DNA of 64,000 nt from contig JACSRS010000223.1 in NCBI GenBank assembly GCA_014879655.1, forward strand, positions 1-64,000, given 5' to 3'. How positions within the stretch are numbered: the stretch's first letter is position 1; each line of letters opens with the position of its first letter. The stretch is from Burkholderiaceae bacterium. Lineage in GTDB: Bacteria; Pseudomonadota; Gammaproteobacteria; Burkholderiales; Burkholderiaceae_C. Of this stretch, positions 2,910 through 34,307 are shown piece by piece. The translations under genes were made by a program, and so were the position numbers. The notes under the pieces are model-generated. The model saw nothing but the letters and a program-made list of their open reading frames with translations. It was not told the DNA's origin and did not search any database.

Positions 2910-4343
2910 TCAGCGCCGCAGTGCCGCCATCTGCGCCTGCAGCACGCGCCAGAACAGCGGCTCCTGCGTGGTCGCGAAATTGATGCGCATCAGCGTGCTG
3001 GGTGTCCGGGTGGCGTGAAACAGCGCGCCGGGGGCCAGCAGGTAGCCCTCGTCCAGCATGCGTTGCGCGAGCTGGTCGGTGTCAACGCCGGTGTCGACCC
3101 AGCCGAACAGGCCGGCCGGTTCGGCGGCAAAGGTGCAGCCGGACTGCAGCGCCAGCTTCATGCTGCGGTCGCGCGCGGTCGCCAGCCGGATGCGGATGCG
3201 CTCGGCGTGCCGCCGCAACTGGCCCTGCTCGATGCAGACGGCCAGCGCTTTTTCCAGCAGCGCCGGCGTGGTCAGCGTTCCCAGCAGCTTGGTGTCCAGC
3301 AGCGGCTCGACCAGATCGGGCGGCGCGGCCAGGTAGCCCACCCGCCAGTTGGGCGCGAGGATCTTGGCAAAGCCGCTGACGTAGATCGTGCGCTGCAGGC
3401 CGTCGAGCGCGCACAGCCGGGTGGCATGTTCAGGCGCCAGGTGGCTGTAGGTGTCGTCCTCGACGATGTGAAACTGGTGCCGGGCGGCCAGTTGCAATAC
3501 GCGGTGCGCGCTGCCCGGCGACAGGCAGGCGCCCGTCGGGTTGTGCAGCACACTGACGCTCACGTACAGCTTGGGCTTGTGCGCCTCGCAGTAACGCGCC
3601 ATCACTTCCAGATCGGGCCCGTCCGGGCCGCGCGGCACCGGCAGGATGCGCATGCCCAGCGCCGCCAGCCGCGCAAATTCCACCGCCCAGCCCGGCTCCT
3701 CGACCATCACCGCGTCGCCGGCGCGCAGCAGCGTCCGGCTTACGATGTCCAGCGCGTGCGTGGCGCCGATGGTGGTGATGACCTGACCGGCCGACGCCTG
3801 CACATTCAGGTCGGCCAGCTTGCGCGACAGCAGCGCGCGCAGCCCGGCGTCGCCTTTCGGCTCGCCGTATTGCAGCGACAGATCCTGCAGCGCCCGCGCG
3901 CCAGTGACCTTGCGCACCGCCGCCGGCAGAAAGGTCGATTCCAGCCATTCGGCCGGCAACACGCCCATGCCCGGCTGCGGCTTGTCGCTGATGCTGTGGA
4001 ACATGCCGCAAATCAGCGCCGTGGCATTCACCGGGCCGGCCGGCCGCAGGTTCGCGCCCGCGGGCGCAGCCTCCGGGCGCACGCCCGGTTGCCGCTCGAC
4101 CGGGCGCGCCAGCGGCGTCTCGCGAACAAAAAACCCGCGGTTCTTGCGGGCCTCCACCAGCCCCTGCGCCAGCAACTGGTCGTAGGCGGCCACCACCGTG
4201 CTGGCGCTCACCCCCTGCAACTGGGCACACTGGCGCACCGACGGCAGGCGCGCACCCGGCGCCAGCAGCCGGTTGCGGATGCGCTCGGCAAATCGTGCGC
4301 TGAGCTGTTCGGTCAGCGACTGGGCTGCGGTTTTCATCAACAT
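2910..4343 (-). CDS. MocR/PdxR-type transcriptional regulator (GntR DNA-binding domain fused to aminotransferase domain)
   Basis: 477 residues. An N-terminal GntR winged helix (about 5-75, with RLPSVRQCAQ and STVVAAYDQL) is joined by a linker to a fold-type I PLP aminotransferase domain. The Schiff-base lysine is probably K327 in SGFAKILAPNWR. Such proteins sense PLP, amino acids or related ligands through the aminotransferase domain. ATG 4343 is chosen over the TTG at 4349 because GGAG lies 8 bp before it. The gene diverges from a LysE-type exporter, and the shared 160-bp region holds repeated CTGTACTGG motifs, so it probably controls that exporter and its own expression. The true effector is unknown. 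Confidence 0.88.
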   Translation of the reverse strand: MLMKTAAQSLTEQLSARFAERIRNRLLAPGARLPSVRQCAQLQGVSASTVVAAYDQLLAQGLVEARKNRGFFVRETPLARPVERQPGVRPEAAPAGANLRPAGPVNATALICGMFHSISDKPQPGMGVLPAEWLESTFLPAAVRKVTGARALQDLSLQYGEPKGDAGLRALLSRKLADLNVQASAGQVITTIGATHALDIVSRTLLRAGDAVMVEEPGWAVEFARLAALGMRILPVPRGPDGPDLEVMARYCEAHKPKLYVSVSVLHNPTGACLSPGSAHRVLQLAARHQFHIVEDDTYSHLAPEHATRLCALDGLQRTIYVSGFAKILAPNWRVGYLAAPPDLVEPLLDTKLLGTLTTPALLEKALAVCIEQGQLRRHAERIRIRLATARDRSMKLALQSGCTFAAEPAGLFGWVDTGVDTDQLAQRMLDEGYLLAPGALFHATRTPSTLMRINFATTQEPLFWRVLQAQMAALRR

Positions 4344-27573: not shown

Positions 27574-27672
27574 GCGGCCGCGTGCGCGCGAACGACTGCG
27601 GGAAATCACGCAGAGGCGAATACGCAAAGAACTCTCTATACTCTGGCGAGTTCATACCCCATGGAGTTATCA

Positions 27673-28194
27673 ATGACCGCCTCCGCAACGGATCATCCCC
27701 GCCCGTTCTGGCCCCCGCTCGCCGCCGGCGTCGCGCTCGGACTGGTGCTGCTGCTGACCTTCGTGCTGACCGGGCATGGCCTGGGCGCCACCGGGGCCAC
27801 CACCCGCGTCAGCGCCTGGCTGGGCGAACTGGTGGCACCCGCCGCAACGCATGCCAACGCCTACCTGGGGCCGATGGTCGAAGGCGGCAACCCGCTGTCA
27901 TCCTGGATCAGCTGGCAGGTAGTCGGCGTCGCGCTGGGCGCGCTGGTGGCGGCATTCTGGGGTGGGCGCTTTCGGGTGCAGCTGGACGGCGCCCACAGCG
28001 TCGGCACGCCACGCCGCATCGCCACCGCGCTGATCGGCGGCCTGCTGGCCGGCTTTGGCGCGCGGGTCGCCGCAGGCTGCACCAGCGGACTGGGCCTGTC
28101 GGGTGCGGCCACGCTGGGCATCGCGGCTTTTGTCTTTCTGGGCACCTTCTTCGCGTCGGGCCTGATCGTGCACCGCCTGGTGAAAGGACTCTGA
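27673..28194 (+). CDS. YeeE/YedE-family sulfur transporter, N-terminal half protein
   Basis: 173-residue membrane protein with about four to five hydrophobic segments. RVAAGCTSGLGLSGAATLG carries the conserved cysteine motif of YeeE/YedE proteins (thiosulfate transporter TsuA and the PmpA/PmpB pairs). GGAG lies 6 bp before ATG 27673; ATG 27661 is the alternative. It is only half the length of full YeeE; the next gene supplies the complementary half, one base after this stop. Confidence 0.87.
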   Translation: MTASATDHPRPFWPPLAAGVALGLVLLLTFVLTGHGLGATGATTRVSAWLGELVAPAATHANAYLGPMVEGGNPLSSWISWQVVGVALGALVAAFWGGRFRVQLDGAHSVGTPRRIATALIGGLLAGFGARVAAGCTSGLGLSGAATLGIAAFVFLGTFFASGLIVHRLVKGL

Positions 28195-28195
28195 G

Positions 28196-28807
28196 ATGTT
28201 TCCCCTCAATGACGGCGGCATGGTCACGGGCCTGCTCTGCGGCTTTCTGTTCGGCTTCGTGCTGGAAAACGCCGGTTTCGGCAGTCCCTGCAAGCTCACG
28301 GCGCAGTTCAGCCTGCGCGACTGGTCGGTGTTCAAGGTGATGTTCACGGCCATCGTCGTCGCGGCTGCGGGCCTGTGGCTGCTGCAGCTGGCCGGCGTGA
28401 TGAAGGCCGATTCGGTCTTTGTGCCGACCGCGCTGCTGGCGGCCGCTGCCATCGGCGGTGTGATGGTGGGTGCCGGTTTTGCCGTTGGCGGCTACTGCCC
28501 CGGCACCTCGGTGGTCGGTCTGTTTTCAGGCCGTATCGACGCGATGTTTTTCCTGGTGGGGCTGCTGCTGGGCACCTTTGCCTTTGCCGGCCTGTATGGC
28601 CCGGCCATCGAGGCCGTCATGGCCGCGTGGGAAGTGCAGGGTGGCGACACTTTTACCGACGCCTGGGGTGTGGCGCCGGCCGTGATGATCGCCATCCTGG
28701 TGGCGGCGCTGGTCGGCGTGTTCTACGCGGGCTCCTGGTTTGAACGGCGCTCGCGCGGCCCGGTCACTGCCGAGCAGGCTGTCGCCGGTGCATCGGCCGA
28801 AACCTGA
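28196..28807 (+). CDS. YeeE/YedE-family sulfur transporter, C-terminal half protein
   Basis: 203-residue membrane protein with about five to six hydrophobic segments. GFGSPCKLTAQF and FAVGGYCPGTSVVGL are the two remaining cysteine motifs of the YeeE/YedE family, absent from the preceding half protein. ATG starts one base after the upstream stop, so both halves are made together and probably assemble into one channel for thiosulfate or a related sulfur compound. The C-terminal tail is soluble and cytoplasmic or periplasmic. Confidence 0.87.
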   Translation: MFPLNDGGMVTGLLCGFLFGFVLENAGFGSPCKLTAQFSLRDWSVFKVMFTAIVVAAAGLWLLQLAGVMKADSVFVPTALLAAAAIGGVMVGAGFAVGGYCPGTSVVGLFSGRIDAMFFLVGLLLGTFAFAGLYGPAIEAVMAAWEVQGGDTFTDAWGVAPAVMIAILVAALVGVFYAGSWFERRSRGPVTAEQAVAGASAET

Positions 28808-28862
28808 CGCCGCCCTGTCCGATTTTTTCAACCCCGTCCTGAACCTGAAGATGGAGAAGACC

Positions 28863-29138
28863 ATGTCCTCACGCAACCCGACCCGGCGCAAACTCGCCGA
28901 GACCCTTTCAGCCCTGATGGTGGCAACGGCCCTGGTGGCGCCGGCGCCTGCCGTGCTGGCCGCCGACACACCGGCGAAGAGCGACGCCAAGGCCGATGCG
29001 AAGGCCGGCGACAGCAAGAAGGCTGAAAACCCCTGTGGTCCGTCCAACCCCTGCGGACCGGCGAAGAAGAAAAAGAAGAAGTCCGACGCCGGCAACCCCT
29101 GCGCCCCGGCCAACCCGTGCGCGCCGAAGAAGAACTGA
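28863..29138 (+). CDS. small exported NPC(G/A)P-repeat protein
   Basis: 91 residues from ATG 28863 (GGAG 7 bp upstream; ATG 28851 is possible). A signal peptide with cleavage near AVLA-AD is followed by a Lys/Ala/Asp-rich low-complexity stretch and four identical NPC-x-P units with C58, C64, C80 and C86, two before and two after a six-lysine run. No fold is predicted. The cysteine pairs in a secreted, lysine-rich peptide next to sulfur-transport genes suggest a periplasmic persulfide or metal carrier; this is inference. I do not recognise a named family. Confidence 0.75.
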   Translation: MSSRNPTRRKLAETLSALMVATALVAPAPAVLAADTPAKSDAKADAKAGDSKKAENPCGPSNPCGPAKKKKKKSDAGNPCAPANPCAPKKN

Positions 29139-29800
29139 GATCCGAAAGCCTGCTTGATGCCGCCCAGCGCGTGGCCGGCATCCAGTTGCGCTATGCCCGT
29201 GCCGGCACCAGCCTGGCCCGCGCGGCGATGGCCGGCGCGGACGCGCTTGAAAGCTTGCGCCATTACCCGGCGGGCGATGTCGTCGACACCGCCGCCGGCA
29301 CACGTTTCTATTACCACGCCCATCCGTCGCGCCGCCATCCGCCCGACGAACACGGGCACTTTCATCTGTTCGTCTACCCCGGCGGTTCGCCATCGGGGCC
29401 GGATTTCTTTCACCTCGCTGCGTTGTCGCTGGACGCCCGCGGCCAGGCGCTGCGCTGGTTCACCACCAACCGCTGGGTCACCGGTGAGCGCTGGCGCGAA
29501 GCGCCTGCCCTGCTGGAGGCGCTGGCGCGCTTCGAAGTGCGCACGCGGGGACGGCTGGCACCTGTTGCCGACTGGCTCACCGCGATGGTCCGGCTGTTCG
29601 AACCCCAGATCGCCGCGCTGGTGCGCCGACGTGACGCCGTGATGGCCCGGCAATTTGCGCGCAAGGGGCGCGAAGGCGCCCTTGAAGACCGCCGGCTGGA
29701 TGTGGTCAGCGAGTCCGGCCTTTCGCTGCCACAGCGCCTGCACCAGCTCAGCCACCCCGAATCCGATCACCCCCGTTTCAAACCAAGGAGAAACCCATGA
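29117..29800 (+). CDS. conserved protein of unknown function (DUF6969-like)
   Basis: 227 residues from GTG 29117, overlapping the NPC-repeat gene by 22 bp; no ATG exists before the conserved part. The central FYYHAHPSRRHPPDEHGHFHLFVYPGG patch is unusually His-rich and invites metal or haem binding. No signal peptide or membrane segment is visible. I recall similar proteins only as a domain of unknown function, so the label is tentative. It overlaps the rhodanese start by 4 bp (ATGA at 29797), which ties it tightly to the sulfur cassette. Confidence 0.7.
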   Translation: MRAEEELRSESLLDAAQRVAGIQLRYARAGTSLARAAMAGADALESLRHYPAGDVVDTAAGTRFYYHAHPSRRHPPDEHGHFHLFVYPGGSPSGPDFFHLAALSLDARGQALRWFTTNRWVTGERWREAPALLEALARFEVRTRGRLAPVADWLTAMVRLFEPQIAALVRRRDAVMARQFARKGREGALEDRRLDVVSESGLSLPQRLHQLSHPESDHPRFKPRRNP

Positions 29801-30786
29801 GACTTTTATTTGCAAAATGCACCGCTGCCGCCGCACTGGCCTGGGGTGTGGTCGCCGCGCAGGCGGGCGTGCTGCCCGGCCCCGTGGTCGATACGGCGTG
29901 GCTGGCCGCCAACCTGGACAAGGTGCAGGTGGTCGAAGTCCGCGGCAACGTCAAGTCGTTCACCGGCAAGCCGGAGTTCGAAACCGATGCCAAGTCGGGC
30001 AAGAAGACGCTCTCGGAAGTGGGCGGGCACATTGCCGGTTCGCGCCTGATCGACATGAAGACCATGCGAACCGAGCGCAAGTTCGGCGAGCTCAAGGTCA
30101 AGTACATGATTCCCGAGATGAACGCGTTCGAGAAAGTCGTTCAGGCCGCTGGCGTTGACGCCGACAAGCCCATCGTGCTGGTGCCGGTGGGCACCGAAAC
30201 CACCGACGTGGACGACGCGCTGCGCGTGTACTGGCAGCTCAAAGTCTATGGTGAAGACGATGTCGCGGTGCTGGACGGCGGCATGGCCAGCTGGCTGATT
30301 GAAAACCGCCCCTACAGCTCGGACGCTGCCCCAGCCAAAACGGGCACCTGGAAAGCCAAGGCCGATCGTTCGGCCCGGTACTTTGCCGATTCGGATGATG
30401 TGGCCAAGACCATCGCCGCGAAGAACGCCACCCTGGTCGACGCGCGCGACATGAAGCAGTACTACGGCCTGACCAAACGCGACTACGTCGGGGCGTATGG
30501 CCACCTGGAAGGCGCTCGCCTCTACCCGCCGGAGCTGCTGCTCAAGACGGCCAGCGGCGCGGGGAAGTTCATGAGTGCCGACACCTACCGCGCCCTGATG
30601 ACGGCCCAGGGCATCGATCCGGCAGCGCCCAGCATTGCCTACTGCAACAGCGGCCACCTGTCGTCGGGCCCCTGGTTCGTGCTCTCCGAAGTGCTGGGTA
30701 ACCCGTCGGCCAAGGTATATGACGGATCGCTGCACCAGTGGACCCTGGAAAACCGGCAGCTCGTCGGCGCCGTCCCGCTCAAGTAA
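29797..30786 (+). CDS. periplasmic tandem rhodanese (sulfurtransferase)
   Basis: 329 residues. Signal peptide (cleavage near AAQAG), then two rhodanese domains. The first has no active cysteine (IVLVPVGTETTDVDD, Val at the expected place); the second carries C283 in IAYCNSGHLSSGPW, the persulfide-forming residue. The order inactive-active is that of thiosulfate/3-mercaptopyruvate sulfurtransferases. As last gene of the cassette, before a strong terminator, it probably moves sulfur in the periplasm between an imported or exported sulfur species and an acceptor, perhaps the NPC-repeat peptide. Confidence 0.88.
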   Translation: MRLLFAKCTAAAALAWGVVAAQAGVLPGPVVDTAWLAANLDKVQVVEVRGNVKSFTGKPEFETDAKSGKKTLSEVGGHIAGSRLIDMKTMRTERKFGELKVKYMIPEMNAFEKVVQAAGVDADKPIVLVPVGTETTDVDDALRVYWQLKVYGEDDVAVLDGGMASWLIENRPYSSDAAPAKTGTWKAKADRSARYFADSDDVAKTIAAKNATLVDARDMKQYYGLTKRDYVGAYGHLEGARLYPPELLLKTASGAGKFMSADTYRALMTAQGIDPAAPSIAYCNSGHLSSGPWFVLSEVLGNPSAKVYDGSLHQWTLENRQLVGAVPLK

Positions 30787-30808: not shown

Positions 30809-30840
30809 AAAGGGGGTGTCGGCCGACACCCCCTTTCTTT
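30809..30840 (+). terminator. rho-independent terminator of the sulfur cassette
   Basis: A perfect 28-nt palindrome (AAAGGGGGTGTCGG and its complement, 30809-30836) is followed by CTTTTG, 22 bp after the rhodanese stop. Being symmetric, it could also terminate katG from the other side. Confidence 0.85.

Positions 30841-30870: not shown

Positions 30871-34307
<3,437 letters not shown>

Follow-up and report, generated by a model that had tools for sequence, protein, structure and literature searches.

Among the described systems closest to the locus reported here are the bufferins and oxazolins, whose precursors are Sec-exported, Cys-rich peptides acting with the cytosolic metal enzyme MNIO (DUF692, PF05114); Cys-rich peptides of these systems bind copper, and their DUF2063-type partner proteins have been proposed to mask the signal peptides (PMC12452194). 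A second point of comparison is the YeeE-like transporters, among which SoxT1B acts in signalling rather than in bulk import (PMC11582611). We analyzed a 64,000-nucleotide stretch of DNA of a Burkholderiaceae bacterium (GenBank assembly GCA_014879655.1, contig JACSRS010000223.1, positions 1 to 64,000), referred to below as the window. Between priA (PriA domains detected by profile search) and a terminator, positions 27,673–30,786 carry five co-directional genes, encoding, in this order, (i) S1 and (ii) S2, the C- and N-terminal halves of a YeeE/YedE protein, (iii) a short Cys-repeat peptide, (iv) a protein of the DUF6969 family and (v) a rhodanese. The peptide and DUF6969 genes are paired, in this cassette and well beyond it, and it is very likely that their products work together.

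The peptide gene (28863..29138, plus strand), recognized by reading of its open reading frame (ORF), specifies a product of 91 amino acids with four NPC(G/A)P motifs. An N-terminal signal-like segment, ending AVLA/ADTP, is followed by NPCGPSNPCGP, a KKKKKK stretch and NPCAPANPCAP. An earlier note on this DNA had described an exported repeat peptide: the repeats are borne out, with four copies of the NPC(G/A)P DNA motif in 64 kb, all in the peptide gene, compared with 0.16 expected, and export is suggested by the putative Sec signal, as read from the sequence and by a simple hydrophobic-stretch test. A Pfam search of the peptide gave zero matches, including none to a SoxY/SoxZ domain. The periplasmic sulfur-carrier chemistry of SoxY and SoxA offers a functional parallel, that of a multi-Cys carrier flanked by small residues (GGCGG in SoxY); however, the peptide lacks a SoxYZ domain and the cassette lacks Sox enzymes.

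The adjacent gene (29117..29800, plus strand) encodes the DUF6969 protein, which matches the PF22308 profile with an E value of 3e-60 (203.6 bits, gathering cut-off 27) and no other Pfam family. Its conserved H/E/H core comprises the motifs HYP..D..D, YYHAH, EHGHFH, FTTNRWV and RD, and the family alignment contains the invariant residues H67, H69, E78, G80, H81, H83, H99, N118, R172 and D173. What had earlier been described as a His-rich patch is therefore the invariant core of this family rather than a low-complexity segment. There is no hydrophobic segment at the N-terminus of the protein, and it therefore most likely meets the peptide precursor in the cytosol. The AlphaFold model (predicted local distance difference test, pLDDT, 93; predicted template modelling score, pTM, 0.89) presents a five-strand meander flanked by helices, a fold for which no match was found in the PDB or in a viral fold library; the best PDB sequence match (E 0.16, to AHSP helices) was judged not credible. 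Most of the invariant residues lie on or beside neighbouring strands of the model, whose strand register suggests that they may form a single metal site. A search of a literature library retrieved no publication for DUF6969, PF22308 or any of the repeat strings, and no named function for DUF6969.

In order to follow the pairing, DUF6969 loci of Pseudomonadota were collected by a bacterial genome scan, which yielded 29 loci, and by phylum and family surveys, which added more; 69 non-redundant loci were left after removal of near-duplicates (loci and genomes carry L and G numbers below). A Cys-repeat ORF is located near the DUF6969 gene in 64 of the 69, in alpha-, beta- and gammaproteobacteria, a count that combines matches of a repeat filter with peptides which the filter missed and which were read in other frames. 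This strict filter replaced a loose Cys-density filter that had given many false ORFs, and was itself relaxed once, to admit longer gaps as well as R and L, when it had missed the window peptide, so that its thresholds were not preset; its background rate was one weak match in 410 kb of flanking DNA. The loci without a Cys-repeat ORF are L017, L018 (a 3-kb contig), L051, L058 (which starts at a contig end) and L061. The first of these, from Halomonas (L017:5436-8588), contains a full-length YeeE, a divergent rhodanese and DUF6969, but its 12.5 kb of sequence yielded no ORF with Cys repeats. In some loci (L020, L053, L054, L056) the nearby Cys-repeat ORF is on the opposite strand.

The repeats differ between lineages. 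NPCxP repeats accompanied by YeeE and rhodanese genes (the cassette of the window, designated type A) are found in Burkholderiales and CGACGACGA repeats in Rhizobiales, and further types are built of CAAGC, KCGACAAK and NPCAAK. A phylogeny groups these types, requiring 12 changes compared with 33 in shuffles, with the root and some long branches being unsure. NCBIfam searches with four other DUF6969-linked peptides named none of them. The repeats are also found as parts of larger proteins: in L022, L055, L057, L059 and L060, cytochrome c proteins with N- or C-terminal NPCAA(K) Cys-repeat domains adjoin DUF6969, with a SoxA/TsdA domain identified by Pfam in L022, L057 and L059 and by resemblance in L055 and L060. 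Directly downstream of DUF6969 in L052, an ORF (3244-4338, minus strand) combines many NPCAP/NPCAA repeats with a weak, below-cut-off match to cytochrome P460. In many lineages the peptide/DUF6969 pair occurs without YeeE or this rhodanese; it is thus not specific to sulfur cassettes, and the His-rich protein is better read as the partner of the peptide than as a sulfur protein.

Several other genes were observed around these pairs. An ArsS-type radical SAM protein (TIGR04167) and an FAD oxidoreductase adjoin the pair in L132 (6163-8527), and a similar radical SAM ORF was recognized by eye near L065. Genes for an extracytoplasmic function (ECF) sigma factor and a zf-HC2 protein lie directly downstream of DUF6969 in L058 (1031-1842), and a like pair was seen by eye upstream of the L022 locus.

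The complete order S1–S2–peptide–DUF6969–rhodanese is present in 33 of the 69 non-redundant loci, the window included, and in 34 when L070, with a fused YeeE, is added. These 34 loci include more distant Burkholderiales (L067-L069), in which homologs of S1, S2 and the rhodanese were found, the rhodanese of L067 having been read directly. Among 251 whole genomes of the family to which the window belongs, DUF6969 was found in 28, S2 (the N-half) in 23 and strong rhodanese orthologs (E<1e-50) in 22; all three occur, at adjacent positions, in 21. The associations of DUF6969 with the rhodanese (Fisher test, p=1e-23) and with S2 (p=1e-22) overstate independence, because the genomes are related; the tally nonetheless spans many genera. 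The tandem DNA pattern for NPC[GA]PxNPC[GA] gave 22 matches in 16 of the 251 genomes, each directly upstream of DUF6969, and its reversed control gave none. The search for co-occurrence of the peptide, the YeeE pair and the His-rich protein that the earlier note had proposed was thus strongly passed. No other gene family was found to recur around the cassette. As for genomes with part of the set, G479 (L133) is the only family genome with a strong rhodanese ortholog (58% identity) and no DUF6969, and G446 and G554 contain the YeeE N-half with neither DUF6969 nor a strong rhodanese ortholog.

These counts bear on the possibility of chance neighbours, in which a housekeeping sulfur transporter would happen to adjoin an uncharacterized gene and a small ORF with no relation to it. 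GC-rich DNA often contains small ORFs of low complexity, and the loose Cys-density filter did yield many false ones; however, the genes co-occur almost exclusively with each other across genera, and overlapping starts are kept in L002 and L005. A chance neighbourhood is therefore extremely improbable, and the family survey, with its Fisher tests and the pairing of the DNA pattern, led us to discard it.

The pair resembles the bufferin and oxazolin systems in that a low-complexity, Cys-rich precursor with a Sec signal is encoded beside a putatively cytosolic, metal-dependent protein. It differs from them in that DUF6969 belongs to another family, with a modelled fold lacking a PDB match, and in its NPCxP repeats in type A. 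The PF05114 search covered the type A cassettes of all family cassette genomes other than G553 and G620, together with the outgroup loci; it found no such gene beside any of them, and dependence of these cassettes on MNIO was dismissed. Likewise, none was found beside most of the other peptide/DUF6969 pairs. The genome of the window encodes an MNIO on contig C207, and its cassette is on C82. In three genomes (G366, G591 and G598; loci L065, L127 and L128), a CGAK-type peptide/DUF6969 pair has an MNIO gene approximately 2 kb upstream; the full order in L065 is MNIO-DUF2063-DoxX-peptide-DUF6969, and DUF2063 and DoxX were confirmed in both L065 and L128. In G369, MNIO is approximately 7 kb away from the pair. 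DUF6969 thus shares the niche of MNIO and not its family. Most likely it serves Sec-exported Cys-repeat peptides from the cytosol, as a metal-dependent partner or maturase, and is an analogue rather than a member of the MNIO/bufferin systems.

The same comparison raises the possibility that the peptide is a buffer for copper or other soft metals and that DUF6969 matures it into a periplasmic chelator similar to bufferins or oxazolins, with the rhodanese and YeeE supplying or removing sulfur and so protecting thiols or forming metal sulfide under metal stress. Copper binding by the MNIO-system peptides (PMC12452194) and the CGAK-type pairs downstream of MNIO are in keeping with this, and stress regulation is hinted at by the genes for an ECF sigma factor and a zf-HC2 protein close to some of the loci. 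However, neither metal pumps nor metal regulators are a recurrent part of the type A surroundings, and the pair is accompanied there by sulfur-transfer proteins whose catalytic Cys residues are invariant; we regard a metal buffer as rather doubtful.

The activity of DUF6969 may also be read in a second way, as that of a cytosolic escort and not an enzyme, whose Zn or Fe site binds the reduced Cys repeats, blocks disulfides and passes the unmodified peptide to Sec. Pairing with unrelated repeats (NPCGP, CGACGA, CAAGC, CGAK) suggests recognition of cysteine and not of a single sequence, and the masking role proposed for DUF2063-type partners (PMC12452194) provides a precedent. The polar invariant residues (H67, H69, E78, H81, H83, H99, N118, R172 and D173) nevertheless cluster like an active site, beyond the needs of a passive binder, and we consider this escort model a possible but minority interpretation. 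Between a modifying enzyme and a chaperone in general, the balance is even.

The first two genes of the cassette link it to sulfur transport. S1 (27673..28194, plus strand; a second in-frame start is at 27661) is PmpA-like and matches positions 176-308 of the PF04143 (Sulf_transp) profile (E 4e-20), and S2 (28196..28807, plus strand) is PmpB-like and matches positions 3-154 (E 7e-15). Since S1 corresponds to the C-terminal and S2 to the N-terminal part of the profile, they constitute one YeeE-type transporter in two pieces, in inverted order. This refines the description of two complementary halves given earlier; in the distant genome of L070 a single full-length fused YeeE gene takes their place in the same cassette. 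The TsuA/YeeE thiosulfate transporters and the short forms PmpA and PmpB likewise belong to PF04143, the halves lying at opposite ends of the profile with one invariant Cys each (PMC11582611), but in the present locus the gene of the C-terminal half comes first and the pair shares its cassette with genes for a Cys-repeat peptide, DUF6969 and a rhodanese. Both S1 Cys136 and S2 Cys101 (GGYCPGTS) are identical in 32 of 32 other cassette loci; as judged from the published residues (PMC11582611) and motif context, they would be the equivalents of TsuA Cys293 and Cys91, respectively.

The last gene (29797..30786, plus strand) encodes a tandem rhodanese with two PF00581 domains and an N-terminus that is signal-like by eye, in agreement with the periplasmic rhodanese described previously. 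Its active-site residue, Cys283 of the C-terminal domain (YCNSGHLS), is identical in 33 of 33 homologous loci. With ExtH and the tandem periplasmic (MST-like) rhodaneses it shares two domains and an active Cys in the second. However, its score against the nearest NCBIfam model, ExtH (NF040901), is 80.7 bits, well below the 200-bit cut-off of this equivalog; strong orthologs occur in 22 of the 251 genomes, of which 21 have one beside DUF6969.

The assignment of a sulfur role made in the earlier note is well supported for the cassette as a whole, through the family membership of its products and the invariant Cys residues of S1, S2 and the rhodanese, and does not extend to the peptide/DUF6969 pair as such. 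It is probable that the cassette handles sulfane sulfur or thiosulfate. The direction of this traffic may be outward: the split YeeE, the rhodanese and the peptide would not bring sulfur into the cell but sense or expel excess persulfide, e.g. as a protection against sulfide. The signalling function of SoxT1B (PMC11582611) and the lack of a dedicated oxidation enzyme in the cassette would fit such a system, but regulator genes are absent from the cassette and do not recur in its surroundings, and we think signalling or efflux unlikely.

S1 and S2 are separated by a 1-bp gap (28,194/28,196), S2 and the peptide gene by 55 bp, the sole larger gap; the peptide and DUF6969 genes overlap by 22 bp (29,117-29,138), and the DUF6969 and rhodanese genes by 4 bp (ATGA, 29,797-29,800). 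The operon ends with an intrinsic terminator (30809..30836, plus strand) composed of a 12-bp stem followed by CTTTT (folding energy -23.1 kcal/mol, z -4.7). The tight array, with its order and spacings, and the strong terminator were thus both confirmed. Beyond it, in convergent orientation, lies a KatG-like catalase-peroxidase ORF (30871-33300, minus strand), recognized by eye from the ORF list.

We propose, with about an even chance of being right, that the operon is a periplasmic sulfane-sulfur handling unit built on a DUF6969-dependent Cys-repeat peptide. DUF6969 would act on the new precursor in the cytosol through a metal site of invariant His and Glu residues, and would modify the NPCxP cysteines, or hold and metallate them, ahead of Sec export. 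Once exported, the multi-thiol peptide could receive sulfane sulfur (persulfide) from the periplasmic rhodanese or hand it over to that enzyme, and could feed, or else drain, the two-piece YeeE, which would carry sulfur across the inner membrane. Several observations weigh against this proposal. The enzymatic role of DUF6969 is a prediction for a protein whose modelled fold has no known match, and the data are also compatible with a chaperone, with a protein that loads metal or with an escort. The PmpAB proteins of Hyphomicrobium gave no response to thiosulfate (PMC11582611). Neither the CGACGA type of Rhizobiales nor the CGAK type found close to MNIO/DoxX has a sulfur context, and the peptide's own role may therefore be metal binding. 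Finally, SoxY is present in 20 of 21 cassette genomes and in 167 of 230 others (p=0.02), a mild enrichment that argues against a tight link to Sox oxidation; we therefore dismissed the cassette as a module of the Sox pathway. A bolder form of the proposal, which we put forward only tentatively, is that DUF6969 is the first member of a new class of metal-dependent maturases, which modify cysteines in a large and varied set of Sec-exported Cys-repeat peptides and cytochrome tails and are unlike the known enzymes of ribosomally synthesized and post-translationally modified peptides (RiPPs) in sequence and modelled fold, and that the modified peptide of this locus is a new periplasmic sulfur carrier for the split YeeE.

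DUF6969, an apparently unstudied family, gains from this analysis a testable partner, the adjacent Cys-repeat peptide. If it does modify peptides, this would open a RiPP-like class overlooked by MNIO-based mining. Little is understood of what donates sulfur to the YeeE transporters; should the type A peptide prove to be a carrier of sulfane sulfur, it would bridge the gap between them and the periplasmic sulfurtransferases. The pairing suggests an unrecognized two-part system, which may ready Cys-repeat peptides for the handling of sulfur or metals outside the membrane.

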